Below, one piece after another: positions 374 to 39,704 of a stretch of DNA of 40,566 bases (positions are counted from its first letter, which is position 1; the number at the start of each line of letters is the position of its first letter). Location of the stretch: the NCBI GenBank assembly GCA_014730065.1, contig WJIW01000117.1:1-40566 (forward strand), written 5' to 3'. The position numbers and the translations under genes are program-made. The DNA is from Armatimonadia bacterium. GTDB taxonomy: Bacteria > Armatimonadota > Zipacnadia > UBA1398. Under the pieces are notes generated by a model. The model was given only the letters and a program-made list of their open reading frames with translations, was not told where the DNA came from and ran no database searches.

Positions 374-2296
374 ATGGCAGCAGGAAGACAGCCGCGACGC
401 ATCCTGGCACCCGTGACGGGGCTGCTTGGGGGGTGGGTCGACGACCTCCGGATGGCGGGGAATCCGTACGCCATCCGCGACATTCGCTCCCGGGTTCGGG
501 GCCTGCGGTTCCCCTTGCTGCTTCTCATCTACCACGTCATCGTCATCGGCGTGGGGCTCATCGCCGTGGCCGCCTATGCCGCCAGCGCGAATCCCACTAC
601 CCCGGCGGGACGGTACGTCTTCCCATCCCTCGTGTACACCCAGCTCGTACTCGCTCCCATCGTCTCGGCGGTGCTGACGGCCACGTGCGTCTCCACCGAA
701 CGGGAGAAGCAGACCATCGATCTGGTGGTAATGACACCCATGCGCGGCGTCGAGATCGCGCTGGGGAAGCTGGCCATCCCGTGGGGACTCACCATGATGG
801 TCGCCATCACCTCGGCGCCGTACGCCGTGTTGTGCATGGTGGGCGGCGGGGTTAACTCGGGCTCGGTGCTGCTGCTGTACCTGGGTTTGGCCATCTTCTG
901 CGGGATCACCGCCACCTTCGGCCTGCTCATGTCCGTCGTGTCTCGAAGCTCGGCATCGGCCGTCATCGTGACCCTGGTCGTGTATGTGATCTGCCTGATC
1001 ACGGGTCTCGTGGGCAATGGACTGTTGGTTCAGGGCTCCTTCGGGGCCGGCATGTTCGGCCCGCCCAACTGGACCTTCGGCCCGTACACCTACCTTTACC
1101 CGACCACTTGGGCGAGCGGGATGCTGGCCGCCGGCGATGCCCAGTGCCTGGCCTTCGGTCGCGGCGTCCCCTTCTGGCTCGCCGGGGTGGCCGTCTGGGG
1201 CCTCCTGGGGGCCTACATGACCATGGTCGCCAGTTGCCGGCTGAGCATCACGCCGCCCAGGCACCTCATCGCCCGGCGAGTCTTGGGCCTGTTGACGTGG
1301 ACAGCGCTCGCAGCCATGGTCATCGGCGGGGTATGGGAGGACTTGGCTAGCGGATCGACCTTCTCCATGGCCAACCTCGGCGGGTACGGGGGCGGTGGGG
1401 CGAGCATGCTGGTCATCGTGTCTACCATCGCGACCATGGCGGCCTCGGTGGTTGCCATGCAATCGGGGCTGGGCGACTATCCGGACCTGTGGTGCCGACC
1501 CTTTGGCCAGGTGCTTCGGCGCATGGCCGTCCTGTGGAAGGTGCTGAGCCCCCGGCCCGAGTCGGGCCTGGCCATCGGTCTCCTTGGCTGGGCGGCGGCC
1601 GTGGCGGTCCCCTTCCTCGGGAACCACCTCGTCTTCGGGAGTGCCATCCCGCCATCCTTGGCTCCAGGTCATCTGCTGGGATTGCTGATCCCCCAGGTCC
1701 TCTGCATCGTCTTCGCCAGTTTTGTGGGGCTGTGGGCGAACGCGCGGTTCCCCTACGCGACCAACGCCCGCCGCAACGCCGCCGCCGGCCGACTGGTGCC
1801 GCTGCTGGCGTGGCCCATCGTCATGGCGATCGTGTTCGCCGCCATCGCGGGCCCTGTGGGTGCCCGCAACCCGGAGGCGGGATACATCACGTCGGCCATC
1901 GGAGCGCACGTGTCTGCCCTCAGCCCCTTCTCCCACCCCATGCTTCTGGGAATGGCGGGTCTATCGACGCCCATGGCGATGAAGGCATGGGTCGAGATCG
2001 GCCCCCTGAGCCTGCACCCACATATGGTGGCCGCCCTGATCGCCTTGGGACTGGCCATCGGCATGCTCGTGGTGACCGCTCGCCGGTGGCGGGAGAACGC
2101 CCGGTGGCTCCAGAGCCAGGGGTACTCCATGGGCAGGCTCGAGGAGCAGCAGGACCACACCGCCGTCACCCCGGCTCACGCCGTGTACCCCACCGATCCG
2201 TCGGTGCAGAAGACGGTTACCGCACCGGCCCAGGAGACGCCCGCGGAGCCATCCGAAACCGAGCCGCCGGGTCCCTACTCACCTGGCTCCAGGTAG
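374..2296 (+). CDS. ABC-2 type transporter permease, multi-TM
   Basis: 640-aa ORF with many hydrophobic segments; 'STEREKQTIDLVVMTPMRGVEIALGKLAIPWG' resembles ABC-2 permeases (TERE...T.dlL..tP.....ilgGK). Confidence 0.75.
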   Translation: MAAGRQPRRILAPVTGLLGGWVDDLRMAGNPYAIRDIRSRVRGLRFPLLLLIYHVIVIGVGLIAVAAYAASANPTTPAGRYVFPSLVYTQLVLAPIVSAVLTATCVSTEREKQTIDLVVMTPMRGVEIALGKLAIPWGLTMMVAITSAPYAVLCMVGGGVNSGSVLLLYLGLAIFCGITATFGLLMSVVSRSSASAVIVTLVVYVICLITGLVGNGLLVQGSFGAGMFGPPNWTFGPYTYLYPTTWASGMLAAGDAQCLAFGRGVPFWLAGVAVWGLLGAYMTMVASCRLSITPPRHLIARRVLGLLTWTALAAMVIGGVWEDLASGSTFSMANLGGYGGGGASMLVIVSTIATMAASVVAMQSGLGDYPDLWCRPFGQVLRRMAVLWKVLSPRPESGLAIGLLGWAAAVAVPFLGNHLVFGSAIPPSLAPGHLLGLLIPQVLCIVFASFVGLWANARFPYATNARRNAAAGRLVPLLAWPIVMAIVFAAIAGPVGARNPEAGYITSAIGAHVSALSPFSHPMLLGMAGLSTPMAMKAWVEIGPLSLHPHMVAALIALGLAIGMLVVTARRWRENARWLQSQGYSMGRLEEQQDHTAVTPAHAVYPTDPSVQKTVTAPAQETPAEPSETEPPGPYSPGSR

Positions 2297-5200
2297 AGGC
2301 CCAGCTCCGACAGGGCGGGGCAGACGGGCGACTCCACCACGCGCACCCGCACGCGCTCGATCGTGGTGGGCTCCAGGCGGATCAGCCGCCTAGCCCCAAT
2401 ACCTGTGACCGCCGCGACCTCGCGCCACTGGCCGCCTTCCCACACGTCCACGGCGATGGTCTCGATGCGCTGGCCCAGCGGCAGGTGCTCGCGAAGGGAG
2501 ATCACGTTGAAGGTAGTGGGCTGGCCCAGATCCAGCACCAGCTCCGGAGCCGTGACGCCATCGTCCGTCGCCCAGTACGTGTCGCGGTCGCCGTCGAGGA
2601 GCGCCTCGGGACCATAGGCCGGGTGGTCGCCGCGTACATCGCTGGCGGTAAGCTCCGCGCCGGCGGCCAGGTTCTCGTCGAACGTCTCCTCGATGATGCG
2701 CCCGAACTCAGCTAGCGACGCCGCATCGGCCTCGTGGATCTGTCCGCGCCGGTCGGGCGGCAGGTTCAGTAGTAGTGACGCGCCCCGCCCGATGGAGGCG
2801 TAGTATAGGTCCACGAGCTGCTGGGGTGTCTTCACATCGTCGTCCTCGGCGGGATGGTAGAACCAGCCCGGCCGGATGGAGACATCGGCCTCGGCGGGGA
2901 TCCACTCCGACCCTCCGCGCTCGCCCGATGTGTTGCGTGGGATGTCGATCTCGCCCACTGTGCCCTCGGGCGTGATGGTCGCCCAGCAAGGATCGCCGGC
3001 GACGCCGCTCTCGTTGCCGACCCACCGCACGTCGGGCCCTATGTCGCTGAAGATCACCGCGCCGGGTTGAAGCTCCCGGATCAAGCCCCAAGTCTCATCC
3101 CAGCCGTAGTAGCCGTGCTTGTCCACGCGCCGAGTCTCGTTGGCGCCTCCGTAGTAGCCGTCCCCGCCGTTGGCGCCATCGAACCAGACCTCGAAGATCT
3201 CGCCGTACTCGGTGAGCAGCTCCCGAAGCTGGTTACGGTAGTATTCCACGTAGGCCGGTGAGCCATAGTCCGCATGATTCCGGTCCCAGGGAGAGAGGTA
3301 CACGCCGAATTCGAGGCCATGGCGGCGACACGCCTCGGCCACCTCGCGTACCACGTCGCCTTCGCCATCGCGCCACGGACTCGCGGCAACGGAGTGGTCG
3401 GTGTACGCGCTCGGCCAGAGGCAGAAGCCGTCGTGGTGCTTGGCCGTCAGGATGAGGCCCTTCAGTCCCCCCTCGGCGGCGACCCGGGCCATCTGGTCGG
3501 CATCGAAGTCGGTGGGCTCGAAGATCGATGGGGACTCGTCCCCGAAGCCCCATTCCTTGTCGGTGAACGTGTTCACGGTGAAGTGCAGGAAGCCGTACAG
3601 CTCCAGATCATGCCAATCGAGCTGCCGGTCGCTGGGTAGGGCGCCGTAGGGCTCGGGCGGATCGGGCGCGGGACCGGTTCGGCGTACCACGCGGACGCCG
3701 AAGAGGCCGCCGGCGAAGTTGCCCTCATGGCCCCTCAGCTCGACGGTCACCCGGTCCTTGTTTTCGATCAGGTCCCCGGGCAGGGGGTAAGTGATCTGGA
3801 AGAACTCGTCGGGGGCGTCCATGTCCAGGGTCTGGGTGGCGATGACCTGGCCGTCCACCACGATGTCGAAGGTCCGGGCGCCCACATCGCTCCCCCAGTA
3901 CGTGCAGATCAGGTCCAGCGGCTCCGAGGGATCGACGGCCATCTCGAAGGAGAACCAGCCGCCATCGAAGCCATGCCGGAACTTCCGGCCCAGGTGTTCG
4001 CCCACGCCCGTGTTCTCGCCCTGGACGCTATGATCGCGCTCGTCCTGCATCTCCCCCGGCTGCATCCAGTCCACGGTGATGGCCTCGAGAACCTTCTGGC
4101 GCCGCCGCTCCTCGCGATACTCGGCCTGTCGCCGCTCCCAGCCCTCGGGGCTGAACCGTTCCCAGTAGACGGTGTACCTTTCGCCGTGGACCTGGTGGAA
4201 GGGCTTCAGGGGGACGTTCCTGGGATGGCCCGCTCCCCGCAGACGGAAGGTCAGGGGCTCGTCGCCCGCCACGATCCACTCCTCCAGATCGCGATCGCCC
4301 GGCACCAGAACGGGCACGTAATCCACTTCGGTGGCGCGGGGATCATTCTCGGGCCCTAATAGGCCCGCCAGCACGAGGGGGCCGTACAAGATGGCCACTC
4401 GGTCCGCATCGTCGGGCATGGGCTCCAGCCGGAGCTCCATGGGGAGGCGCACTCGAACCGTATCGCCGTCCTCCCACTGGCGGCGGATGTGGGCGTAGCC
4501 ATCCCTGACCTGCGCCGGCGCCTCTTCGCCGTTGACCTCGATGGCGAACCCGTCGCCGACCCAGCTCGGCTTGCGCACGGCCAGGGACATCTCGGTGGGT
4601 TCGGCCAAGTCCAGGGTCAGGGTGGTCGCCTCCTCGGAGGGGAAGTCGGTGGCCTGGCGGAGGGTCAGGCCTCGCTCATTCCAGTTCAGTGTCGAGGCGA
4701 TGAAGAGGTTGACGTACAAGGTGTCACCGGAATGGTAGTAGATCGACTCCCCGTACTTGGCGTGGTTCTCGATGCCCGTACCGACGCAGCACCAGAAGCT
4801 GTCGTCGATGGTGGAGTAGGTCTTGTGGGAGCCCGGCTCCAGGGGCACGTAGTAGCACACCATGCCCGTATCCGGGTTCTGCGAGGCCAGGATGTGGTTA
4901 TAGAGGGCCCGCTCGTAGTAGTCGGCGTGCCGGGCCGAGGGGTCCCAGGCCATGAGGTGCCGGGTCAGCTTGAGCATGTTGTACGTGTTGCACGTCTCGG
5001 TGGTCGAGCTCCCGAGGCGGTTGCTTAGCTGGTCCGGGGGCCCGAAGTGCTCGCTGGTCGTGTTCCCGCCGGTCACGTACGAGTGATGATCGATCACCGT
5101 GGACCAGAGGTTCTCGGCGATGGTCCGGTCGCGCTCGTCGCCCGTCAGCTCGTAGCGCCGGGCTACGCCGATGATCTTGGGGATCTGGGTGTTGCCATGA

Positions 5201-6024
5201 AGGCCGGGGAGGGGGTCCTCGCCTTCGGCCAGGGGCTCGAGCACCGCCTCGTGGTGGAACTTGCGCGACAGCTCGAGGTATCTCTCCTCGCCCGTCACGG
5301 CATACAGCTCAGCGAAGGACTCGTTGATGCCGCCATGCTCGCACGCCAGCATGGTCTGCCATTGGTCGTGGGTCAGGTTGGCTGTGAGCTGGTAGGCCCA
5401 GTCCGCCAGCTCGATGGCGACCTGGAGAGCCAGCTCGTTGCCGCAGTGGCGGTGCGTGTCCAGGAGTCCGGCGAACTGCTTATGAAGGGTGTACCAGGGC
5501 ACCCAGATGCCATTCAGGTCGAAGCCCGCGCTACGGATGTCACCGGCCTTGATCTCGGCGAAGGCCCGCCGGCCATCGGGGATCGCGGCCACGTAGCCGT
5601 CCCCGTTGGCCCGCTGGCACTCGCGCAGCTCGTCCACGATGTAGGCCGTTCGGTCGCCGAGCCGCTCATCGCCGGTGGAGGCGTACATCTTGGCGCAGGC
5701 GGTGAGATAGTGGCCCAGAGTATGCCCGGCGACGCCCTCCGATTCCCATGCGCCATAGGACTCGGCCTTGGGCTCCAATCCGGCCTCGGAGCGGAACCGT
5801 GCCAGCAGCCGGTCGGGCTCCAGCGCCAGGAGCCACCGACCATCCAGCTCCATGGCGTGCTTGAAGGGCCCCTCCTCCAGCCGCACCGACTCGAGAGGGA
5901 AGGGCAGTGCGACGACGGCGTCCACGTTGGGGACGGCGGCGTCGGGAGGCGGGAGCTGGCCGATCAGGGCGGGCAGGAGAGACGCTGCGGTGAGAACGGT
6001 GGGCATGTAGGGCTCCTCCGGCAT
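2275..6024 (-). CDS. Multidomain glycoside hydrolase: GH127 (beta-L-arabinofuranosidase, DUF1680) + DUF6805-like region + GH29 alpha-L-fucosidase-like + F5/8C-like domain
   Basis: GH127-type motifs (TSEHFGPPDQLSNRLGSSTTETCNTYNMLKL, YERALYNHILASQNPDTG, FWCCVGTGIENHAKYGESIYY); GH29 motifs (LYGFLHFTVNTFTDKEWG, LILTAKHHDGFCLWPS, EVWFDGANG); C-terminal NLAAGAELTASDVRG..YGPEALLDGDRDTYWATDD typical of F5/8C. ATG at 6024 or 6006. Confidence 0.88.
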   Translation of the reverse strand: MPEEPYMPTVLTAASLLPALIGQLPPPDAAVPNVDAVVALPFPLESVRLEEGPFKHAMELDGRWLLALEPDRLLARFRSEAGLEPKAESYGAWESEGVAGHTLGHYLTACAKMYASTGDERLGDRTAYIVDELRECQRANGDGYVAAIPDGRRAFAEIKAGDIRSAGFDLNGIWVPWYTLHKQFAGLLDTHRHCGNELALQVAIELADWAYQLTANLTHDQWQTMLACEHGGINESFAELYAVTGEERYLELSRKFHHEAVLEPLAEGEDPLPGLHGNTQIPKIIGVARRYELTGDERDRTIAENLWSTVIDHHSYVTGGNTTSEHFGPPDQLSNRLGSSTTETCNTYNMLKLTRHLMAWDPSARHADYYERALYNHILASQNPDTGMVCYYVPLEPGSHKTYSTIDDSFWCCVGTGIENHAKYGESIYYHSGDTLYVNLFIASTLNWNERGLTLRQATDFPSEEATTLTLDLAEPTEMSLAVRKPSWVGDGFAIEVNGEEAPAQVRDGYAHIRRQWEDGDTVRVRLPMELRLEPMPDDADRVAILYGPLVLAGLLGPENDPRATEVDYVPVLVPGDRDLEEWIVAGDEPLTFRLRGAGHPRNVPLKPFHQVHGERYTVYWERFSPEGWERRQAEYREERRRQKVLEAITVDWMQPGEMQDERDHSVQGENTGVGEHLGRKFRHGFDGGWFSFEMAVDPSEPLDLICTYWGSDVGARTFDIVVDGQVIATQTLDMDAPDEFFQITYPLPGDLIENKDRVTVELRGHEGNFAGGLFGVRVVRRTGPAPDPPEPYGALPSDRQLDWHDLELYGFLHFTVNTFTDKEWGFGDESPSIFEPTDFDADQMARVAAEGGLKGLILTAKHHDGFCLWPSAYTDHSVAASPWRDGEGDVVREVAEACRRHGLEFGVYLSPWDRNHADYGSPAYVEYYRNQLRELLTEYGEIFEVWFDGANGGDGYYGGANETRRVDKHGYYGWDETWGLIRELQPGAVIFSDIGPDVRWVGNESGVAGDPCWATITPEGTVGEIDIPRNTSGERGGSEWIPAEADVSIRPGWFYHPAEDDDVKTPQQLVDLYYASIGRGASLLLNLPPDRRGQIHEADAASLAEFGRIIEETFDENLAAGAELTASDVRGDHPAYGPEALLDGDRDTYWATDDGVTAPELVLDLGQPTTFNVISLREHLPLGQRIETIAVDVWEGGQWREVAAVTGIGARRLIRLEPTTIERVRVRVVESPVCPALSELGLYLEPGE

Positions 6025-6097
6025 GGGATTGGTGAAGCGGAGTTCGCGCCCTTTCGCGGGTACCCTTGCGAGTGATGAGGCGATCGCGGTAGCTGAA

Positions 6098-6127
6098 AGG
6101 GGCGAGGCCCCCATGGACCTCGCCCCT
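6098..6127 (-). terminator. Rho-independent-like terminator for the 6186..6554 gene
   Basis: Perfect 10-bp inverted repeat AGGGGCGAGG / CCTCGCCCCT with 10-nt loop, followed on the minus strand by TTTC; lies downstream of 6186..6554 (-). The T-tract is short. Confidence 0.45.
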
Positions 6128-24045: not shown

Positions 24046-24150
24046 GAGGCGGCGTACGTAGCCACCGGCTAGGGCTTGATCGAGCGTGAAGGGAACGACG
24101 CGACCTCGGTAGCGAGGTCCGGATTCCACACACGGAAGGGGTGGACGGCG

Positions 24151-24753
24151 ATGCAGTTCAACGAGATCCAGCTGGATGCCTTACGCGAGATCGGCAACAT
24201 CGGGGCCGGCAACGCCGCCACGGCCTTATCCGAGCTGATCCAGACGAAGGTGGACATCACCGTCCCCGAGGTGCGGGTGATCGAGACCACCAAGATCCCG
24301 GACATGGTGGGAGGGCCGGAGCGGGAGGTGGTAGCGTGCCTCTTCGGTCTGTCGGGTGGGCTCGAGGGAGCGGCGATGTACGTGTTCCCATTGGAGGAGG
24401 CGAAGTACCTCTCCGACCGCATGCTCCAGCAGCCCGAAGGCACGACCACGGAGATGGGCGAGATGGAGCAGTCGGTGATCGGCGAGGTGGGCAACATCCT
24501 GACAGGCTCCTACATGACCGCCATGCAGGGCTTCACAGGCATCGCGTCCAACCTCAGCCCCCCGGCGGTCACGGTATCGCAGGCCATGGTGATCTTCAGC
24601 GAGGCATCGGTGATCGCCAGCACCTTCGCTGACTGGACCATCTGGGTCGAGACGGACTTCATCGTGGAGGAAGGTCACCTCAAGGCTTACCTGTTCCTAT
24701 TGGCCAGCCCCGAGGCCATGGAGCAGGTGCTCACCTCCCTTGGGGTTGGTTGA
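24151..24753 (+). CDS. cheC: Chemotaxis protein CheC (CheY-P phosphatase family)
   Basis: LDALREIGNIGAGNAATALSELI..(first D/ExxN-type site) and EMEQSVIGEVGNILTGSYMTAM (second site). Confidence 0.93.
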   Translation: MQFNEIQLDALREIGNIGAGNAATALSELIQTKVDITVPEVRVIETTKIPDMVGGPEREVVACLFGLSGGLEGAAMYVFPLEEAKYLSDRMLQQPEGTTTEMGEMEQSVIGEVGNILTGSYMTAMQGFTGIASNLSPPAVTVSQAMVIFSEASVIASTFADWTIWVETDFIVEEGHLKAYLFLLASPEAMEQVLTSLGVG

Positions 24754-24755
24754 CG

Positions 24756-25250
24756 ATGGGCTCAACGGTCGCGGTGGGGATGTCCGAGGTCAAGGTATCG
24801 GCACGAGCGGGGGACACCTTGGTTGCCTTGGGACTAGGATCCTGTATAGGGGTGTGTCTCTACGACCGTAGAGCGAAGGTTGCGGCTATGGTTCACGTGA
24901 TGCTGCCGGAGAGCAATGGCCGGGGCCAGAGTCCGGGCAAATTCGCCGACACGGGAGTGCCGCTGCTGGTGGAGACGATCGAGAAGGCGGGCGGCAGCAA
25001 GAAGGACTGCCTCTGCGCTATCGGGGGCGGCGCGGAGGTCTTCTCGTTCAGCTCATCGACGCCGGGCTTGGCCATCGGGAAGCGCAATGGCGAGGCGGTG
25101 AAGGCAGCGCTCAAGACTGCCGGGCTGAGGATCATGGCCGAGGACCTGGGTGGCAACGTGGGACGCACCGTATCCCTGGACGTGGCGACGGGCGTCGTCA
25201 AAGTTCGTCCGGTAGGCGGACAAGAGCGTGAACTTGCCAAATTGGGCTAA
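24756..25250 (+). CDS. cheD: Chemoreceptor glutamine deamidase CheD
   Basis: LVALGLGSCIGVCLYDRRAKVAAMVHVMLPES (catalytic GSC and H), KFADTGVPLLVETIEKAG, GGGAEVF. Confidence 0.94.
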   Translation: MGSTVAVGMSEVKVSARAGDTLVALGLGSCIGVCLYDRRAKVAAMVHVMLPESNGRGQSPGKFADTGVPLLVETIEKAGGSKKDCLCAIGGGAEVFSFSSSTPGLAIGKRNGEAVKAALKTAGLRIMAEDLGGNVGRTVSLDVATGVVKVRPVGGQERELAKLG

Positions 25251-25341: not shown

Positions 25342-25830
25342 ATGTCCGCACCCAAACTGAAGAACTGCTCCCGATGCCGAAACGCCTTCATGGCGGTGCC
25401 CGGTCAGCGCATCTGCCCCAACTGCGTGCGGCAGGAGGAGGAGGTCTTCCTGGAGGTCAAGGAGTTCCTTCGGGACAACCCCGGCTCGTCCATGAAGGAG
25501 GTGGCCGATGCCACGGGGGCTGCCGCCGATGTGGTGATGGGATTCCTCCGCTCGGGCCGTCTGGATGCCAAGCTCGCGCCCAAGGACGCTGGGCTGAGCT
25601 GCGCATCGTGCGGGACCAGCATCTCCTCGGGCCGGCTCTGCGCCAAGTGTGAGGAGAAGACCACCAGCCAGCTCGGCGGTGGCGGGGCCCCCCGCAAGGA
25701 GCCGAAGGAGGAGCCTTCCCGCGGCCCGGGCTACCGGAAGACCAGTACCGACAGCACGCGCAAGACGGCGGGATCGGGTACGACCGAGGTCCGCAGCGGG
25801 TTCGTGGATTACAAGCGCGGGAGGTCCTAG
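25342..25830 (+). CDS. YvyF-like (TIGR03826) flagellar-region zinc-ribbon protein
   Basis: Two Cys4-type motifs (CSRCRNAF..ICPNC; CASCGTSISSGRLCAKC) flanking 'EEEVFLEVKEFLRDNPGSSMKEVADATGAAADVVMGFLRSGRL', matching YvyF architecture. Confidence 0.78.
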   Translation: MSAPKLKNCSRCRNAFMAVPGQRICPNCVRQEEEVFLEVKEFLRDNPGSSMKEVADATGAAADVVMGFLRSGRLDAKLAPKDAGLSCASCGTSISSGRLCAKCEEKTTSQLGGGGAPRKEPKEEPSRGPGYRKTSTDSTRKTAGSGTTEVRSGFVDYKRGRS

Positions 25831-25892: not shown

Positions 25893-26753
25893 GTGGCTGA
25901 GATGCTCACGGCCGAGGAAGTCGCGGCACGAGTAAGAGACTTGCCAGCCCTCCCGACCGTGGTCACGGAGGTGCTCCGGGTTACCCGGGATCCCGACAGC
26001 TCGGTGTTCGACCTTACCGAGGTGCTGGCCCGAGACCAGGCCCTGACCGCCAAGGTCTTGAGGCTGGCCAACTCGGCCCTGTTCGGCTTCCCCCGGCGCA
26101 TCGCAACCTTGTCCGATGCCGTCGTGCTGCTGGGCTTCCACACGATCAAGAGCTTGGCCATCGCCGGCTCGGCATTCAGCGTGATGGATCGGGCGGTAGA
26201 GGGGTACGGACTGGAGCGCGGGTGGATGTGGCAACACGGTATCGCCGCGGGGGCCGCTGCCAGGTTTCTGGCTAAGAAATGGCGACCCGCACTGGCCGAG
26301 GAGGCCTTTATCGGCGGACTCCTCCACGATCTGGGCAAGATCGTCCTGGACTCCTACGTGGGTGAGGCCTTCGACGAGATCATCAAGAAGGTGCGGAGGG
26401 AGAACAAGCCCTTCGCGAGCGCTGAACGCGACATCCTGGGCTTCGACCATGCGGCGGTGGGCGCGCTGGTCGCCGAGGCCTGGGCGCTTCCCGGCGACCT
26501 GGTCGCCGCGGTGAGATACCACCACTCGCCGTCGGAGGCGACGGAAGACACGGCACTGGTGGGCTTGGCGCACCTTGGGAACATCGTTGCCCTCTCGACG
26601 GGCTTTGGGGTTGGAGCCGACGGCTTGGCCGCACCCCTGGATGGCGATGTTCTGGCTCAGCTCGGCCTGGGGGTTGGACACGTGGAGGAGGCCATCGCCC
26701 AGATGCCCGACGCCCTGGCCGACTCCGAGCAGCTCCTCGAGCTGGAACGCTAG
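25893..26753 (+). CDS. HDOD domain protein
   Basis: DLPALPTVVTEVLRVTRDPDSSVFDLTEVLARDQALTAKVLRLANSALFGFPRRIATLSDAVVLLGFHTIKSLAI. Confidence 0.93.
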   Translation: MAEMLTAEEVAARVRDLPALPTVVTEVLRVTRDPDSSVFDLTEVLARDQALTAKVLRLANSALFGFPRRIATLSDAVVLLGFHTIKSLAIAGSAFSVMDRAVEGYGLERGWMWQHGIAAGAAARFLAKKWRPALAEEAFIGGLLHDLGKIVLDSYVGEAFDEIIKKVRRENKPFASAERDILGFDHAAVGALVAEAWALPGDLVAAVRYHHSPSEATEDTALVGLAHLGNIVALSTGFGVGADGLAAPLDGDVLAQLGLGVGHVEEAIAQMPDALADSEQLLELER

Positions 26754-26812: not shown

Positions 26813-27904
26813 ATGGGTCGGATCCGGGCTCTGATCGTCGATGATTCCGCCTTCATGCGGAAGATGGTCGGGGACATACTTTCACGGAGTGACAAGATCG
26901 AGGTCGTGGGGACGGCTCGAAACGGTCAGGAGGCACTCGACAAGCTCGAGGCCCTCGCACCCCATGTCATCACCCTCGATGTGGAGATGCCTGTCATGGA
27001 CGGCATTGAGACCCTCCGGCGGGTCATGGAAGTCCGCCCGACCCCCATCGTGATGCTCTCCAGTCTGACCGAGGAGGGGGCGGAAGTCACGCTCCGGGCT
27101 CTACACATGGGTGCGGTCGATTTCATACACAAGCCGTCGGGGGCCATCTCCCTGGACATCGAGAAGGTCTCCGACGACATCATCTCCACCGTGGAGGCGG
27201 CCGCTGGGTCCAATATGAGCAGTCTGGCTCGCCGGCCGCTGGCGGGGCCCAAGCCCGTGTCACCCCCGCCTCCGGCGGCTCCGGCTGCGCCAAGGCCCGC
27301 GCCCCATGCGGATGGGACGGGTCATCGAGCCGTGGTCGTGATCGGCACATCCACGGGTGGACCCCGCGCCCTTCAGGAGGTCATACCGCGGCTGCCAGCC
27401 GATCTGGAGGCGCCGGTGGTCGTTGTCCAGCACATGCCGCCGAAGTTCACCAAGTCGCTGGCCGAGCGCCTTGACATGCTCAGCGCCGTGGAGGTGCGTG
27501 AGGCCAGGGATGGGGATCCGATCCGCGCCGGCACGGTTTTGCTGGCGCCGGGCGGTCGCCACATGAGGATCGGTGATGGACACAAGATCGTGTTGAGCGA
27601 TGAGCCTCCCCTGTGGGGGGTGCGGCCCGCTGCGGACCTGCTCATCGAGTCGGTGGCCCAGCGCTACGGCGCGGGGGCCGTCGGCGTGATCATGACCGGA
27701 ATGGGCCACGACGGCGCCAGGGCCATGCAGTACCTCAGGGAGCACGGGGGATCCACCATCGCCGAAAGCGAGGAGACGTGCGTCATATACGGGATGCCCC
27801 GAGCCGTCGTGGAAGCGGGGGCGGCGGACGAAGTCGTGCCGCTGCAGAGAATTGCCGAGCGCATTGTGCGTCTCGTCAGAGAGCGGGCCGCCAAGGTCCG
27901 GTAG
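26813..27904 (+). CDS. cheB: Protein-glutamate methylesterase CheB
   Basis: Receiver (RALIVDDSAFMRKMVGDIL..TLDVEMPVMDG) + CheB catalytic domain (IGTSTGGPRALQEVIPRLP, VVQHMPPKFTKSLAERLD, GVIMTGMGHDGA). Confidence 0.97.
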   Translation: MGRIRALIVDDSAFMRKMVGDILSRSDKIEVVGTARNGQEALDKLEALAPHVITLDVEMPVMDGIETLRRVMEVRPTPIVMLSSLTEEGAEVTLRALHMGAVDFIHKPSGAISLDIEKVSDDIISTVEAAAGSNMSSLARRPLAGPKPVSPPPPAAPAAPRPAPHADGTGHRAVVVIGTSTGGPRALQEVIPRLPADLEAPVVVVQHMPPKFTKSLAERLDMLSAVEVREARDGDPIRAGTVLLAPGGRHMRIGDGHKIVLSDEPPLWGVRPAADLLIESVAQRYGAGAVGVIMTGMGHDGARAMQYLREHGGSTIAESEETCVIYGMPRAVVEAGAADEVVPLQRIAERIVRLVRERAAKVR

Positions 27905-27916
27905 GAGCGTGACGCA

Positions 27917-28729
27917 GTGGCCAGTCCGAATCCGCCAGCTACGCCCAAGGAGGACGCCGAGTTTGCGTCTTTCTGTCGGCGCGTCTATACGCTAACGGGC
28001 ATCGATCTAGCCAGCTACAAGTCAAACCAGATGCGGCGCCGGATCAAGTCCATGGCTGCCCGGGACGGTGCCGCCGGCTTCGAGGAGTTCGCGGGGCTGC
28101 TCGAGAGCGACCCGGAGAAGCTCAACGCCTTCCTCGATAAGGTAACCATCAACGTATCGGAGCTTTTCCGGAACCCCGAGAAGTTCGACCAGCTCCGCGA
28201 TGACTTCCTGGGGCCCATGGCGCGCCAGAACCAGGCCCTCAAGATCTGGTCGGCGGGATGCTCCTATGGCGCCGAGATCTACTCCGTCGCCATGATCCTC
28301 GCCCAGCTCGGCTCCGGACGACGGGACAAGCTCCTGGCGACGGACATCGACGCCCGCATCCTCGAGAAGGCTCGGGCGGGGGAGTTCACCAACCAGGATA
28401 TGAAGAACGTGTCCGACACGCTACGGCGCCAGTACTTCAGCCAGAAGGCCCCGGACGTGTGGGCCATCAGCGACGACATCAAGCGCCGGGTGGAGTTCCG
28501 GCGTCACGACCTCCTGCGCGACCGGTTCGACCGGGGGTTCAATCTAATCCTGTGCCGGAATGTGGTTATTTACTTTACCGACGGGGCTAAGGACAAACTG
28601 TACAAACACTTCTACGAGTCACTGGCTCCAGGCGGTATCCTCTTCGTTGGTGGCACCGAGAGAATCATGGGCGCTAAGGAGATTGGCTTCGAGGTGCCCA
28701 AGACGTTCTTCTACCAGCGGCCCGGGTAG
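27917..28729 (+). CDS. cheR: Chemotaxis protein methyltransferase CheR
   Basis: GTG start; IWSAGCSYGAEIYSVAMIL, LLATDIDARILEKARAGEF, FNLILCRNVVIYF, GGILFVGGTE. Confidence 0.96.
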   Translation: MASPNPPATPKEDAEFASFCRRVYTLTGIDLASYKSNQMRRRIKSMAARDGAAGFEEFAGLLESDPEKLNAFLDKVTINVSELFRNPEKFDQLRDDFLGPMARQNQALKIWSAGCSYGAEIYSVAMILAQLGSGRRDKLLATDIDARILEKARAGEFTNQDMKNVSDTLRRQYFSQKAPDVWAISDDIKRRVEFRRHDLLRDRFDRGFNLILCRNVVIYFTDGAKDKLYKHFYESLAPGGILFVGGTERIMGAKEIGFEVPKTFFYQRPG

Positions 28730-28850
28730 CGGGGCCAGGCAGGACGACGGCGACCGGGTCTTGAAACATAGAGACTCGGGACACCGTTCGCCCTAGCGGG
28801 CCCCAAGAGGGCTGATATGATCGAACGTGGTGAAGGGAGGCAGGTGTCCA

Positions 28851-29213
28851 TTGGCCCAGATTCTGATCGTCGACGACGCCATGTTCATGCGAGTGACGTT
28901 GCGGAACATGCTCACTAAGGAAGGCCATGAGATCTGCGGGGAGGCTGAGAACGGCGAAGAAGCGGTGGCGAAGTACCACGAGCTGAAGCCCGACGTGGTG
29001 ACCATGGATATCACCATGCCCAAGATGGACGGCATTGCCGCGGTGAAGGAGATACTCTCCACCGACCCCGATGCCAAGATCATCATGTGCACGGCCATGG
29101 GCCAGAAGAACATGGTTCTCGAGGCGATTCAGGCGGGGGCGAAGGATTTCATCGTCAAGCCCTTCCAGCCCGAGCGCGTTACCGAGGGCATCCAGAAGGT
29201 TCTGGGCGAGTAG
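28851..29213 (+). CDS. cheY: CheY-like single-domain response regulator
   Basis: TTG start after GGGAGGCAGG; AQILIVDDAMFMRVTLRNML..VVTMDITMPKMDGI..CTAMGQKN..GAKDFIVKPFQ. Confidence 0.94.
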   Translation: MAQILIVDDAMFMRVTLRNMLTKEGHEICGEAENGEEAVAKYHELKPDVVTMDITMPKMDGIAAVKEILSTDPDAKIIMCTAMGQKNMVLEAIQAGAKDFIVKPFQPERVTEGIQKVLGE

Positions 29214-29282: not shown

Positions 29283-30011
29283 ATGACCCTGGATGAGTGC
29301 CGGAGGATTCTGGAGCTGGAGGGTCGGCTCGAGGTTGCCGACCTCAAGCGAGCCAAGCGGCGCCTCCTGATCCTCTACCATCCCGACCAGAATCCCCAAC
29401 GCCGGCAGTGGGCTGATGAGCGGACCCGCCGCGTGCTACTGGCCTATGACCTGCTCATGGCTCACCTGGGGTCGGGCGGGGCGGCGCCGTCGCTCCAGCC
29501 CGGCAGGAGAGCCCGCGGCGGCGGATTCGCTACCGTCTCCGAGCGCGGCCCCAAGCCGACCCGGCCCCGCCCGCGGGAGCCCGAGCATCGGGACCTGAGC
29601 TACCTGCTGGTCCGGGCCTCGGGCCAGTTGCTGGGTCTGCCTCTGGCGTCGGTGGTTCAGGTGATGCCCCTCAGCGCGGAGTCGGTTCAGGCCACGGGTG
29701 TGGCCAAAGGCCTGGGGTGGGCCGGGACGCTCCTCTACCGCCAAGACCGCATCCCGCTGGTGGATCTGGGCGTCGTCATGGGGCTGGACGCGGAAGACCT
29801 GGAGGAGTGCAAGCACTACGTGGTGGTCCGCTCCGGATCGGGCAGTGTGGCGGTGGCCGTCGAGGAGGTCAGTGAGCTTGTAACCGTGAACGCCACGGCA
29901 ATTGAGCCGGCTGAGGCGGTCTTCGCCGGCCTGGGTAGCCATACGAAGGGGTTCTTCCGCTACGAGCAGACGTACGCGGTAATCCCCGATCTCGAAGCCC
30001 TGCTGGGCTGA
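29283..30011 (+). CDS. J-domain-like/CheW fusion protein
   Basis: N-term: CRRILELEGRLEVADLKRAKRRLLILYHPDQNPQRRQWADERTRRVLLAYDLLM (HPD motif between two helices); C-term CheW: YLLVRASGQLLGLPLASVVQVMPL..LLYRQDRIPLVDLGVVMGL..AVAVEEVSELVTV..GFFRYEQTYAVIPDLEALL. Confidence 0.8.
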   Translation: MTLDECRRILELEGRLEVADLKRAKRRLLILYHPDQNPQRRQWADERTRRVLLAYDLLMAHLGSGGAAPSLQPGRRARGGGFATVSERGPKPTRPRPREPEHRDLSYLLVRASGQLLGLPLASVVQVMPLSAESVQATGVAKGLGWAGTLLYRQDRIPLVDLGVVMGLDAEDLEECKHYVVVRSGSGSVAVAVEEVSELVTVNATAIEPAEAVFAGLGSHTKGFFRYEQTYAVIPDLEALLG

Positions 30012-30072: not shown

Positions 30073-30525
30073 GTGTCGCAAGCTGGCCACGAGTCGAAGG
30101 TGCGCTTCGAGTTGTCTCTGCCGTCGGTAGCGGGGTCGTGCCGCAAGGCGCGGCTGGTAGCGTCGGAGATCTGTAAGGACGCCTCCCTATCGCCCACCAG
30201 CGAGTACCGCATACTCCTGGCGGTCGATGAGCTGTGCCAGAACGTGATCCACTACGCATACGGCGGTCCCACCGACCAGCAGAACTTCCAGATCGTGTTC
30301 GAGTATGTACCGGGCTGTGTGTGGGCGGAGGTGCGGGACGAAGGGTGCGGGTTCGATGAGGCCCTTCTGGAGCCCATCGAGGCCGGCAGCCAGGATCTCG
30401 AGAGCCTCATGTACCTGGAGCAGCGCGGGCTCGCGCTGGTGGGAGCCCTCATGGATTCCCGGGAGATCCAGTCGGGTCCCGGTGGAGGCACCACGGTACG
30501 GATCAGCCTGAACCAGCCCACATAG
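30073..30525 (+). CDS. RsbW-like anti-sigma factor / serine kinase (HATPase_c_2)
   Basis: RILLAVDELCQNVIHYAYGG (N-box), AEVRDEGCGFD (G1), QRGLALVGALMDS (G2), GGGTTVRISL. Confidence 0.9.
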   Translation: MSQAGHESKVRFELSLPSVAGSCRKARLVASEICKDASLSPTSEYRILLAVDELCQNVIHYAYGGPTDQQNFQIVFEYVPGCVWAEVRDEGCGFDEALLEPIEAGSQDLESLMYLEQRGLALVGALMDSREIQSGPGGGTTVRISLNQPT

Positions 30526-30586
30526 CCGGGTCTGTCGAGCGTCGGCACGGCGCGGTACAACGCTACCACTTGGAGGATCAGCCCTG

Positions 30587-30928
30587 ATGGAGTTCAAGCA
30601 GCGACAACCGGAAGGCAAGCCGGGCGTGGTTATCGTGGAGGTCGCGGGCGAGGTAGATTCGGCATCGGCCGAGCAGTTTCGGGAGCAGCTCGTCTCCCTC
30701 ATCGAGGGACCCACGAAGCACCTCATCGTGAATCTGGCCGACCTGACGTACATCAACAGCAGCGGTCTGGGGGCCCTCGTCGCCGGCTACAAGCGAGTGC
30801 GCAGCCTGGATGGCACCCTCAAGCTCTGCAACGTCCGCGGCTCCATCGCCGAGGTCATGAAGCTGATCCGGCTGGACAAGATCATCGACATCTACGACAG
30901 CGAGGAAGAGGCCCTGGCATCCCTCTAG
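30587..30928 (+). CDS. STAS domain anti-sigma factor antagonist
   Basis: VVIVEVAGEVDSASAEQFREQL..HLIVNLADLTYINSSGLGALVAGYKRVRSLDGTLKLCNV, with conserved phospho-acceptor context NSSGL. Confidence 0.94.
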   Translation: MEFKQRQPEGKPGVVIVEVAGEVDSASAEQFREQLVSLIEGPTKHLIVNLADLTYINSSGLGALVAGYKRVRSLDGTLKLCNVRGSIAEVMKLIRLDKIIDIYDSEEEALASL

Positions 30929-30965: not shown

Positions 30966-31478
30966 ATGCGGCCCTTGACCCAGCCCGCCCTTCCAGAGGA
31001 GAGCCCCCTCGGCCATCGGGAGCAGCTCGTCACCATCCGTATCGGGGCCGAGGAGTTCGCCTTGCCTGTGGGGCAAGCCCGGGAGATCGTCCCTTACCGG
31101 CGCGTCACGCGCGTACCCGGAGCCGCCTACCAGTTCGCGGGGGTCATGAACCTGCGGGGCGACGTGATCCCTGTCGTCGAGCCCAAGCGGCGCATGGGCG
31201 TGCCCGAGCGCGAACCCGACGAGGAGACATGCATCATCGTGCTCGATGCCGGTGATCATGACATCGGCCTGATGGTGGACGCCGTGCGGGAGGTCGTCGC
31301 CATCGACCCGGACTGTGTCCAGCCGCCGGCGGGGGCCATGGCCGAGGTGCCGTACTTGGTGGGCGTCGTCGAGCTCGCCGACCGCCTCGTGGGCGTGGTG
31401 GATCCCGAGGCCATGATCCAGCCCTCCGGCGTGCCCGCGAGCGATGCCGATGGCTCCACGGCTCGGGAGAGCCCATAG
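30966..31478 (+). CDS. cheW: Chemotaxis protein CheW
   Basis: QLVTIRIGAEEFALPVGQAREIVPYRRVTRVPGAAYQFAGVMNLRGDVIPVVEPKRRMG..VDAVREVVAI. Confidence 0.94.
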   Translation: MRPLTQPALPEESPLGHREQLVTIRIGAEEFALPVGQAREIVPYRRVTRVPGAAYQFAGVMNLRGDVIPVVEPKRRMGVPEREPDEETCIIVLDAGDHDIGLMVDAVREVVAIDPDCVQPPAGAMAEVPYLVGVVELADRLVGVVDPEAMIQPSGVPASDADGSTARESP

Positions 31479-31499: not shown

Positions 31500-33254
31500 G
31501 TGGATACCGCTGACTACATGGGAGTGTATGCCGACGAATCCGATGAGCACCTGCGGGCTCTCTCGGACAACATTCTGCGCCTGGAGGCCGAGCCCGAGGA
31601 CCTATCCGTTGTGGCCGACATCTTCCGCTCATCACACACGCTCAAGGGCATGTCGGCGACCATGGGCTTCGACGAGATCGCCGATCTCACCCACCGCATG
31701 GAGTCGGTGCTCGACCAGGTTCGGCACGGGCGGATGCCCGTCACCCGGGGTCTGATCGATGCGCTGTTCCTCTGCCTGGACGCTCTTCAGGAGATGGTGG
31801 ACCAGGCGGTGGAGGGCCAGGCCATCAGCACCCAAACGGCCCCCCTGCTCGCCCGGCTCGAAGAGCTGGAGGCCGGTACTCGAGGGGGCGGAGCCCGGAT
31901 CCCCCTGCGCCACCCAGCGCGCTCCCCGGCTCAGGGCCAGGAAGGCGTCCACGTCGTGGATCCTCTCGCCGACTCCCAGCCGGGCCAGCGAGCCCAGGCA
32001 GCCACCTACGAGCCTCGGGAGACGCGGGAGCCCGACTCCGGAGCGGTCCCCGCGACGACCGAAGCAGCCGTGCCGGCACCGAGGTCCGCGGATAGCAAGG
32101 TGCAGCGCACCGTGCGAGTGGACATCCACAAGCTCGATGATCTCATGAACCTGACGGGCGAGCTAGTGATCGCGCGCACCCAGCTCGCCGAGCTGACCAG
32201 CCGGCATGACGTGCCGGGCCTCTCCGAGACCGTGGCCGGCATCGGCCGGATCTCCAGTGATCTTCAGCGGGTGGTGATGCGGGCCCGGATGATGCCCATC
32301 GAGCAGGTGTTCAGCCGCTTCCCCCGCATGGTGCGGGACTTGGCCCGAGCCGCGGGCAAGGAGGTGGACTTCCGGATCACGGGCGCCGAGACCGAGATCG
32401 ACCGAACGGTGATCGACGAGATCGGCGAGCCCCTCGTGCATCTCCTACGGAACGCCGTGGACCACGGCATCGAGCCCCCCGAGACTCGGCGCGAGCATGG
32501 GAAGCCCCTTCCCGCCCACGTGTACCTGGATGCCCGCCAAGAGGGCGAGAGCGTCTACGTGACGGTGGAGGACGATGGTGGCGGTATCGACCCCGACCGG
32601 GTGAAGGCGAAGGCTGTGCACCAGGGCCTCATCACCCAGGGGGAAGCCGATTCGATAACAGACGCCGAGGCCGTGCATCTACTCTTCCGCTCGGGGTTCA
32701 CCACGGTCGATCACGCGACGGAGGTGTCGGGCAGGGGGGTGGGCATGGACGTGGTTCGGAGCAAGATCCAGGCCCTGGGTGGGCGGGTCGAGGTGGACTC
32801 GGCCGTGGGCGAGGGCACGACCTTCACCATCGAGCTACCTCTGACCCTGGCCATCGTCGAGGCCCTCCTCGTCGGTGTGGGCGAGGAGCAGTACGCCATC
32901 CCCCTCAGCGCCATCGAGGAGACCCACGCCATCGCCCCCAGCGCGCTCACGACCGTGCACCAGGAGCGGGTCATCTCGCTGAGGGGATCGATGCTGCCCC
33001 TGGCCTTCTTGCGCGAGATCCTGGAGGTGCCGGGCGATCCCCCGGTGGATCCTCTAGAGATACCCATCGTCGTGGTCAAGCAGGGCCAGCGACGCGTTGG
33101 GCTGGTCGTGGACCGGCTGATCCGGCAACAGGAGATCGTCATCAAGCCCCTGTCGGGGGCCCTGGGGGTGCTGCCCCACGTAACGGGAGCGGCCATCCTG
33201 GGTGACGGGTCCCTGGCGCTTATACTGGCCGCCGAGGACGTGGCCGCGGCCTAG
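31500..33254 (+). CDS. cheA: Chemotaxis histidine kinase CheA
   Basis: Hpt SSHTLKGMSATMGF; dimerisation VRVDIHKLDDLMNLTGELVIARTQL; HATPase LLRNAVDHGIEPPETR, GRGVGMDVVRSKIQALGG; CheW-like C-terminus. Confidence 0.96.
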   Translation: MDTADYMGVYADESDEHLRALSDNILRLEAEPEDLSVVADIFRSSHTLKGMSATMGFDEIADLTHRMESVLDQVRHGRMPVTRGLIDALFLCLDALQEMVDQAVEGQAISTQTAPLLARLEELEAGTRGGGARIPLRHPARSPAQGQEGVHVVDPLADSQPGQRAQAATYEPRETREPDSGAVPATTEAAVPAPRSADSKVQRTVRVDIHKLDDLMNLTGELVIARTQLAELTSRHDVPGLSETVAGIGRISSDLQRVVMRARMMPIEQVFSRFPRMVRDLARAAGKEVDFRITGAETEIDRTVIDEIGEPLVHLLRNAVDHGIEPPETRREHGKPLPAHVYLDARQEGESVYVTVEDDGGGIDPDRVKAKAVHQGLITQGEADSITDAEAVHLLFRSGFTTVDHATEVSGRGVGMDVVRSKIQALGGRVEVDSAVGEGTTFTIELPLTLAIVEALLVGVGEEQYAIPLSAIEETHAIAPSALTTVHQERVISLRGSMLPLAFLREILEVPGDPPVDPLEIPIVVVKQGQRRVGLVVDRLIRQQEIVIKPLSGALGVLPHVTGAAILGDGSLALILAAEDVAAA

Positions 33255-37454: not shown

Positions 37455-38458
37455 CGCCCCTGCGATTGGCTACCGTTTTGATCGTATGCGTGGGCCTGGC
37501 CTTGGCTGCCCTCGCCGGGTCGCTCTTCGTCGGCGCCGTGGACATCGACCTGGCCGAGGGGTGGCGGGCCTTGTTCCATGCCGAGCTGCGCGAGGGCAAC
37601 GTGAGCTACCAGATCCTCATCGCCCAGCGGCTGCCCAGGGGCCTGCTCGGGTTCCTGGTAGGTCTGGGGCTCGGGGTGGCCGGCGCGGCTCTCCAGGCCA
37701 TTCTGCGCAACCCCCTGGCCGATCCCTATGTGCTGGGGATCTCCACGGGCAGCGCCCTGGGCGCCGTCCTGGCCATGACCTTGGGCCTGTCCTTCGGCCT
37801 GGGGCCCTTCCGCGCCGTGGAGATCTTCGCCCTCATCGGGGCGGGCCTGGTCATGCTGCTCCTCTACCGTCTGGCTCGGCGCCGGCGCGAGTTCTCCATG
37901 AACGCACTGCTGCTCTGCGGGGTGACCATCGCGCTGGTGGGCTCCTCGGGGATCCTGCTCATGCGCTACTTGGCCGAGCCCCAGCTTCTGGTGATCATGG
38001 ACCGGTGGATGATGGGCGGCTTGGCCATCGTGGGCTACGACGAGCTGGCCGGCCTCTTCCCCCTGCTGCTGCCCGGAGTGCTGCTGATTCTGTGGATGTC
38101 GGGCGCCCTCAACCAGCTCAGCGTGGGGGAGGAGCTGGCCATGGGCAGGGGCGTGGATGTGGAGAGCACCCAGCGATGGGTGTTCGCAGCCGCTTCCCTG
38201 GTGACCGCCGCTGTGGTGGCCATGGCGGGGCCCATTGGTTTCGTCGGGCTCATCGTGCCCCACGCGGTGCGCGGAGTGGTAGGCCCCGACCACCGGCTTC
38301 TGGTGCCGGCATCGGGGCTGGTGGCGGGGGCCTTCCTGGTGTTCTGCGACAGCTTGGCCCGCACCGTCCTGTCGCCCACGGAGCTGCCCGTCGGCGTGGT
38401 CACGTCGCTTCTGGGTGGGCCGGTGTTCGTCTACCTGCTGCTGCGCCGCTCGGGGTGA
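37445..38458 (+). CDS. btuC: BtuC/FecCD family ABC transporter permease
   Basis: QRLPRGLLGFLVGLGLGVAGAALQAILRNPLADPYVLGISTGSALGAVLA; GPIGFVGLIVPHAVRGVVGPDHRLLVPASGLVAGAFLVFCDSLARTV. Confidence 0.93.
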   Translation: MRLTPLRLATVLIVCVGLALAALAGSLFVGAVDIDLAEGWRALFHAELREGNVSYQILIAQRLPRGLLGFLVGLGLGVAGAALQAILRNPLADPYVLGISTGSALGAVLAMTLGLSFGLGPFRAVEIFALIGAGLVMLLLYRLARRRREFSMNALLLCGVTIALVGSSGILLMRYLAEPQLLVIMDRWMMGGLAIVGYDELAGLFPLLLPGVLLILWMSGALNQLSVGEELAMGRGVDVESTQRWVFAAASLVTAAVVAMAGPIGFVGLIVPHAVRGVVGPDHRLLVPASGLVAGAFLVFCDSLARTVLSPTELPVGVVTSLLGGPVFVYLLLRRSG

Positions 38459-38519
38459 GCCGAGGTGCAGGACCCCCCACGGCCGCCCCCGAACTGCTCC
38501 CCTTGAGGAGGAGTCACCG

Positions 38520-39704
38520 GTGCAGGCTTCACCCACGGATCTCAGCATCCTGGTCGTCGAGGATGACGGCCTGTTCCGCGCCATGCTCGAGGCTGCGCTC
38601 AAGGCCCAAGGCCACGAGCCCGTCGCGCGCGCCAGCCTGGAAGAGGCCCTAGCGGCGTACGATGCCGGCCGGTTCGACCTGCTCCTGACTGACCTCCACC
38701 TACCCGATGGCGATGGCATCGAGCTGATGCGTCGTATCCGGTCGACCGACGGCGACATCAGCATCATCTTGATGACCGCCCAGCCCTCCGACGAGTCCCT
38801 CGGTGAGGCCATCGAGGCGGGCGTTGACGACTACCTGGTCAAGCCCTTCCCCGTGGGCGGCGAGTACAATCCCCTACACTTCGCCATCCAGAAGGCCCAG
38901 GCGTACCGGCGTCTGGCCATGGAGAACCGCCGGCTGGTTGGCGACCTGCGGGATCTCAATGAGAGCATGACCCACGAGATCGAGATTGCCGGACGAGTCC
39001 AGCGTGCCCTGCTGAGCCGGCCCTTCCAGCACCCATCCCTGCGAGTCACCACCTCCATCGAGCAATCCTCCGGGATCGGTGGCGATCTGTTCGAGGCAAC
39101 CCCCGCGACCGACGGACGGGTGTTCGTGTCCATGGGAGACGTATCGGGCCACGGACCCGCGGCGGCCCTGGTGATGAGCCTGGTCTACGGCCTGATGCAG
39201 GAGATGAGCCACCGGCCCGTCGGCCCCTCGGAAGCGGTGGACACCATCAGCGAAGCCATGTGCGGTCTCTTCGGGAGCCCCGAGGATACCGTCTTCCTCA
39301 CCCTGTGCCTGGGGTTCGTCGATCCGCATACCGGTGAGCTCGAGCTGGCCAGCGCGGGCCACTGGCCACCCATCTCCGTCCTGCCCGATGGGCGGCTGAA
39401 GGTCCATGACATCTGGAACGGCCTCCCGTGCGGGATCTCCGAGACCTGCGGCACCGAGACGTACCAGACGACCCTGGAGCCGGGCGAGACGCTGGTCCTG
39501 TACACCGATGGCATCACCGAGTCCTATGGACCCTACGGCCGCCAGTTCGGCCTGTCGGGCGTCCAGCAAGCCCTGAGAACGGCGGCGGCGGCGGGCAAGG
39601 ACATCACCGCCGACGTGGTCCAGCGAGCGGCCACCCGGTACCGCAAGGGCGCCGAGCCCGAGGACGATGCCGCCGTCCTCACCGCGACTTATCTGGAGAG
39701 CTAG
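38520..39704 (+). CDS. Response regulator with PP2C-type (RsbU/SpoIIE) phosphatase output
   Basis: GTG start after GAGGAGGAG; receiver ILVVEDDGLFRAMLEAAL..LLLTDLHLPDGDG..YLVKPF; SpoIIE domain AGRVQRALLSRPF, GGDLFEATPATDGRVFVSMGDVSGHGPAAALVMSL, ASAGHWPPISVLPDG, LVLYTDGITES. Confidence 0.93.
   Translation: MQASPTDLSILVVEDDGLFRAMLEAALKAQGHEPVARASLEEALAAYDAGRFDLLLTDLHLPDGDGIELMRRIRSTDGDISIILMTAQPSDESLGEAIEAGVDDYLVKPFPVGGEYNPLHFAIQKAQAYRRLAMENRRLVGDLRDLNESMTHEIEIAGRVQRALLSRPFQHPSLRVTTSIEQSSGIGGDLFEATPATDGRVFVSMGDVSGHGPAAALVMSLVYGLMQEMSHRPVGPSEAVDTISEAMCGLFGSPEDTVFLTLCLGFVDPHTGELELASAGHWPPISVLPDGRLKVHDIWNGLPCGISETCGTETYQTTLEPGETLVLYTDGITESYGPYGRQFGLSGVQQALRTAAAAGKDITADVVQRAATRYRKGAEPEDDAAVLTATYLES

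Follow-up and report, generated by a model that had tools for sequence, protein, structure and literature searches.

How chemosensory arrays are assembled, renewed and dismantled, and what part chaperones play in these processes, are largely open questions. A chemotaxis/flagellar gene cluster in an Armatimonadota draft genome (G000) bears on them: one of its genes, here called J·CheW, encodes a J-domain joined to a CheW domain, raising the question of what a J-domain would do on a chemosensory adaptor. The fusion itself points to a chaperone (DnaK) and to the CheW ring as its site, and it offers a test by a single residue change (HPD to QPD). We examined this gene within its window, meaning the whole analysed stretch of 40,566 nucleotides, and compared it with related genomes and with known systems.

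A J-domain and a CheW domain share one open reading frame

The original prediction had read a J-domain with an intact HPD tripeptide, a Pro/Arg-rich linker and a full CheW domain from positions 29283-30011, a layout that translation, Pfam and AlphaFold confirm (Table 1). Residues 64-106, spanning the linker, hold 7 Pro, 8 Arg and 7 Gly. A Pfam scan of the protein returned the J and CheW domains only, and neither the G/F region nor the beta-sandwich C-terminal domains of DnaJ/CbpA; the best NCBIfam DnaJ score was 21.5 against a cut-off of 338, which places the protein outside the class A/B DnaJ/CbpA members. J·CheW is a new domain architecture joining two known families, and not a new kind of system. 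We found no description of a J-CheW protein in the literature searched; the architecture survey of Barriot et al. 2020 (J Mol Biol) could list one.

The surrounding cluster runs in the order CheC, CheD, YvyF-like, HDOD, CheB, CheR, CheY, J·CheW, RsbW-like, STAS, CheW, CheA, with every gene on the + strand and neighbouring genes either overlapping by 4 bases or separated by 12-97 bases. The plain CheW, previously placed four genes downstream, is in fact the third gene after J·CheW. Genome-wide searches gave 8 CheW-domain matches, 12 chemoreceptor signalling-domain matches and one full-length DnaK.

A link of J·CheW with the RsbW-like and STAS genes was considered and dropped, because this pair is absent beside J·CheW in the related genome G002 (see below). 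The two genes (30073-30928) are accompanied, about 7.5 kb downstream, by a receiver-SpoIIE phosphatase (38415-39704), and the three possibly form a partner-switching module wired to chemotaxis. Elsewhere in the window, positions 2275-6114 of the minus strand encode a 1279-aa protein combining GH127 beta-L-arabinofuranosidase, alpha-L-fucosidase and F5/8 type C domains.

Table 1. Positions of J·CheW, its parts, the neighbouring cluster genes and the related J-propeller proteins (window coordinates unless a locus is named).
Feature	Position	Strand	Evidence
J·CheW fusion protein (P0001)	29283..30011	+	single ORF, ATG start, 242 aa; Pfam, AlphaFold, Foldseek
J-domain, residues 1-63	29283..29471	+	PF00226 25.0 bits; AlphaFold; shuffle control
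HPD tripeptide, residues 33-35 (H33-P34-D35)	29379..29387	+	translation; kept in G002 orthologue and two sister J-domains
Flexible Pro/Arg/Gly-rich linker, residues 64-103	29472..29591	+	low pLDDT; G002 comparison
CheW domain, residues 104-242	29592..30008	+	PF01584 64.5 bits; fold match 6s1k_C, 2ch4; alignment
CheC phosphatase-like	24076..24753	+	Pfam PF04509; syntenic in G002
CheD	24750..25250	+	Pfam PF03975; NCBIfam CheD; syntenic in G002, 57%
YvyF-like flagellar-region protein (P0002)	25342..25830	+	TIGR03826 107.1 bits, below cut-off 124.15; syntenic in G002, 37%
HDOD protein	25893..26753	+	Pfam PF08668; syntenic in G002, 55%
CheB	26813..27904	+	Pfam; NCBIfam CheB above cut-off; syntenic in G002, 56%
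CheR	27917..28729	+	Pfam; syntenic in G002, 57%
CheY-like receiver	28827..29213	+	Pfam; syntenic in G002, 76%
RsbW-like HATPase_c_2 protein	30073..30525	+	Pfam; not beside J·CheW in G002
STAS anti-sigma-antagonist-like protein	30587..30928	+	Pfam; not beside J·CheW in G002
Plain CheW	30966..31478	+	Pfam 123.9 bits
CheA (Hpt, dimerisation, kinase, CheW-like P5)	31500..33254	+	Pfam
J-propeller protein, HPD intact	L032:1498-2781 (G000:C472)	-	sister J-domain of J·CheW
J-propeller protein, HPD intact	L002:1171-1701 (G001:C4)	-	sister J-domain of J·CheW

The J-domain keeps the fold and the HPD motif and lacks helix IV

The Pfam DnaJ profile (PF00226) matches residues 9-59 of J·CheW with 25.0 bits (E 2e-5), below the gathering score of 27.8, so that routine annotation would miss the domain; in the genome search, which used the entire open frame, it scored 27.6 bits (28 with neighbours, called over the 27.8 cut-off). 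In a phmmer search against solved structures J-domains ranked first (DNAJB2, E 3e-5). A profile made from 16 J-domains gave the N-terminus 44.8 bits, whereas none of 20,000 shuffles of these 66 residues exceeded 8.4 bits. A chance HPD or a J score due to composition is therefore ruled out by the shuffles, together with the Pfam match and the fold.

The structure predicted for the N-terminal part is a J fold, as had been anticipated, with helix I at residues 3-9, helix II at 18-31, the HPD loop, and helix III at 38-63 (AlphaFold; pLDDT 92-97). The same helices were predicted when the two J·CheW sequences alone were supplied, without other J-domains (pLDDT 82-92). Foldseek matched this part to J-domains, among them the one bound to DnaK in 5nro_B (E 0.33; rmsd 1.7 A over 53 columns), the weak E-values being due to the shortness of the J-domain.

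The domain departs from the canonical pattern in several respects. Helix IV is absent from the AlphaFold model, where helix III reaches residue 63-66 and is followed by disorder, and there is no QKRAA-type tail. To our knowledge helix IV is not required for Hsp70 stimulation, and the family assignment stands on the HPD motif and the fold despite its absence. In addition, the domain carries a one-residue insertion with an invariant Trp (W43), Lys/Arg at what we take to be Tyr25 of E. coli DnaJ, and Thr at the presumed Phe47. With helix IV missing, W43 inserted and these two residues replaced, the affinity of this J-domain for DnaK is uncertain.

The CheW domain is complete and divergent

The C-terminal part of J·CheW matches the CheW profile (PF01584) over residues 107-241 with 64.5 bits (E 1e-17; cut-off 23.5), and all ten CheW strands are predicted by AlphaFold, forming a complete double barrel. 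Foldseek matches it to E. coli CheW of the core signalling unit (6s1k, E 1e-11) and also to the T. maritima CheA-CheW complex (2ch4). The score is low, however, when set against the 123.9 bits of the neighbouring plain CheW, and the NxRG motif reads YRQD and FRDA in the two known J·CheW copies, with Asn and Gly replaced in both; binding of J·CheW to CheA may therefore be weak. Arginine 153, the R62 equivalent, and the IP.VDL that follows are kept in both copies. A loss of CheA-binding strands of the kind seen in FrzB was rejected, as the alignment contains no 20-residue deletion and the strands are modelled.

The fusion and its gene order recur in a second family

A J·CheW fusion of 268 aa is also encoded by G002 (Armatimonadota MAG JPNA_maxbin.160), a genome of the same order and another family. 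Its J-domain scores 33.2 bits, above the Pfam cut-off, its CheW domain 77.5 bits, its HPD is intact, and it is 34% identical to the window copy. The recurrence of the fusion in this independently assembled genome rules out an assembly artefact. By part, identity between the two proteins is 48% in the J-domain, 32% in CheW and 22% in the linker, which also differs in length and is hence variable in both length and sequence; the higher identity of the J-domain as compared to CheW points to purifying constraint on J. The HPD motif is kept in this only orthologue and in both sister J-domains, which are carried by the J-propeller proteins of G000 and G001, in line with what was expected of its homologues.

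The two genomes share the gene order from CheC through CheD, YvyF, HDOD, CheB, CheR and CheY to J·CheW. An extra CheC/CheX-like gene precedes J·CheW in G002, and flagellar FlgB/FlgC and FliF genes come after it. The third genome of the order, G001, which belongs to the window's genus, gave no MCP match and no J·CheW, and keeps the sister J-domain on the propeller protein. In G017, of the same class, CheY and a CheC/CheX-like gene are directly followed by two genes that we read, from their sequences and without a profile, as FliG- and FliM-like; with J·CheW missing from this cluster, the gene looks inserted in the window's order.

No further single-frame fusion of J and CheW was found in the class (46 genomes) or in the Armatimonadota (291 genomes). 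Nor did samples of four other phyla, about 1,340 genomes in all, yield any; they comprised the Chloroflexi MAG (390), Planctomycetota MAG (382), Deltaproteobacteria MAG (195) and Bdellovibrionales MAG (369) groups, with no positive at all among the 195 Deltaproteobacteria MAG genomes. Since the phylum-wide searches were limited to the 6-13 top-ranking candidates of each genome, and the four outside samples were searched at E <= 1e-12, distant fusions could be missed. A scan of 84,980 species with two peptide patterns returned one J·CheW, that of G002, plus ordinary J-domain proteins.

The closest relatives of the J-domain are on beta-propeller proteins

The nearest J-domains, about 50% identical, form the N-termini of beta-propeller (PQQ-like) proteins of G000 and G001. 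A tree of 25 rows places these two J-domains and those of the two J·CheW proteins in one group, with a support of 93/85 that does not reach the 95/80 mark, and its neighbours are J-domains of other, apparently membrane-anchored, Armatimonadota proteins. All four members of the group have the HPD, a basic helix II, N37, the extra residue with the invariant Trp, and Thr at the Phe47 position. Given the sister J-domains on propeller proteins, an accessory CheW probably acquired a mobile module that recruits DnaK; the branching order inside the group is unsure, so that one and two fusion events cannot be told apart.

DnaK as the likely partner

One canonical DnaK is encoded in each of G000, G001 and G002, keeping the arginine equivalent to R167 (VVRIINEPTAAALAYG). 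In Hsp70, R167 is the residue to which the HPD loop points. DnaK and chemoreceptors are both present in each of the two fusion-bearing genomes. The HPD motif is critical for stimulation of the Hsp70 ATPase, and it is invariant, whereas other residues of the J-Hsp70 contact vary and coevolve (PMC7289447). CheW uses strands 4-5 of its subdomain 2 to bind the P5 domain of CheA, and it contacts the receptor tip where its subdomains meet (PMC6952110). The J-domain is all that class C J-proteins have in common with DnaJ; they aim Hsp70 by means of other, often protein-interaction, domains, and some of them seem to have gained their J-domain late (PMC8215388).

Since J-proteins aim Hsp70, the HPD and the R167 arginine are both in place, and the CheA-binding region is undeleted, recruitment of DnaK to the array is the simplest mechanism. 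On balance, we favour the reading of J·CheW as a class C J-domain protein that binds to the array of receptors, CheA and CheW and recruits DnaK to it; since a related bacterium has this fusion in a conserved gene order, J·CheW is probably a genuine means of bringing a chaperone to a sensor array. Its CheW domain would be the client-binding part and would dock in the receptor-CheA-CheW baseplate in the role of an accessory coupling protein; carried on a flexible tether of about 40 residues, the J-domain would bring ATP-bound DnaK to the array, where the HPD motif would trigger ATP hydrolysis and DnaK might act locally on array components in assembly, turnover or lattice remodelling. The chaperone-recruiting coupling protein of the original prediction is thus retained as the best-supported function, owing to the gene order, the stronger conservation of J than of CheW and the DnaK arginine. 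The part in array assembly or disassembly that it added, and which of the two directions prevails, is something we infer, as are binding and stimulation of DnaK and docking on CheA or receptors. A more specific form, in which J·CheW is a dedicated Hsp70 recruiter placed within CheA/CheW rings, where it makes DnaK remodel the receptor lattice as a bacterial counterpart of auxilin-directed Hsc70 on clathrin, is a tentative possibility. We counted it against DnaK recruitment that J·CheW was found in two genomes only.

Several known systems resemble parts of this arrangement. As in the class C proteins DjlA, HscB and auxilin, a separate domain would pick the client and the J-domain would recruit Hsp70, but we found no class C protein described with a CheW domain, and J·CheW is without helix IV and has a predicted activity. 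It has the full ten-strand fold of CheW coupling proteins (PF01584) and their setting in a che cluster with CheA, CheB, CheR, CheY, CheC and CheD, and differs from them by its N-terminal J-domain, the linker, the changed NxRG and the low Pfam score. FrzB of Myxococcus xanthus is likewise a second, divergent CheW, which modifies array formation beside the core CheW (PMC6952110); it is devoid of the two CheA-binding strands, whereas J·CheW keeps both, according to the model and the alignment, and adds a J-domain. Hsp70-family proteins also work with chemosensory-controlled motility machinery in Nostoc, where DnaK1/DnaJ3 are recruited to type IV pilus motors (PMC9239167), and in Myxococcus, where the Hsp70-like StkA acts upstream of the Dif chemosensory proteins (PMC4319316), but these are separate proteins of type IV pilus systems and not fused to a chemosensory adaptor. 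Together with the binding of RecA to CheA/CheW described below, they set a precedent for an involvement of Hsp70 or stress proteins in motility and chemosensory systems.

Alternative explanations

The same structural facts would also fit a rather unlikely stress-to-chemotaxis switch. Here DnaK would be the signal rather than the worker: array occupancy or coupling of J·CheW would depend on free DnaK, and DnaK busy with misfolded proteins would change the coupling, so that proteotoxic stress alters motility. There is precedent in Salmonella, where the stress protein RecA binds CheA and CheW and alters array assembly (PMC7154110), although that contact is non-covalent and RecA is neither an Hsp70 nor a J-domain protein. 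The nearby RsbW-like/STAS pair and receiver-SpoIIE phosphatase would also suit such a switch, but the pair does not accompany J·CheW in G002. Moreover, the contact between a J-domain and DnaK is transient, which fits catalytic loading of clients better than stoichiometric sensing. Equally concerned with DnaK, and in our judgement unlikely, is a flagellar or basal-body chaperone, whose CheW domain would have left the arrays to bind a flagellar or switch component and deliver DnaK for flagellar assembly. The position of the G002 gene between CheC/CheX-like and FlgB/FlgC, with FliF further downstream, the presence of YvyF in both clusters, and the reported Hsp70 dependence of swimming and swarming in pathogenic bacteria (PMC8215388) speak for it; on the other hand, J·CheW keeps the CheW fold with every strand, and in the window a plain CheW and CheA follow downstream with no flagellar structural gene between.

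A passive adaptor, in which a J-like domain makes protein-protein contacts without productive Hsp70 stimulation, is a shade more doubtful still. It would account for the missing helix IV, the changed Tyr25 and Phe47 equivalents and the DnaJ score below the Pfam cut-off, but not for the retention of HPD, basic helix II and N37 in 4/4 J-domains of the clade or for J being the best conserved part of the protein; and changed contacts need not be fatal, since contact residues vary around an invariant HPD (PMC7289447). That the fusion arose by chance, as an accessory CheW with a passenger N-terminus and no J-specific role, or by misassembly, seems highly improbable. It would agree with a distribution limited to two genomes of one order, but is largely refuted by the G002 orthologue, since the fusion occupies one and the same position in separately assembled genomes of two families, and by a J-domain more conserved than CheW. 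Recruitment of DnaK to the array is thus the reading that we retain.

Other J-domain proteins in the Armatimonadota

The presence of one J-module on different targeting domains (CheW, propeller) makes the Armatimonadota an example of how specialised J-proteins originate. Other J-domain architectures were also seen in this phylum. Three loci (L013, L020 and L030, in G096, G013 and G103) encode a recurring arrangement of a J-domain, a Cys-rich segment that looks zinc-binding, and apparent membrane helices, while short proteins at L009 (G113), L136 (G281) and L004 (G119) start with an M[SP]L.EC-type J-domain and continue into hydrophobic, membrane-like stretches. A 751-aa frame at L005 (G051:C56) joins a Ser/Thr kinase to a J-domain and a DnaJ C-terminal domain, forming an Armatimonadota kinase-DnaJ fusion.
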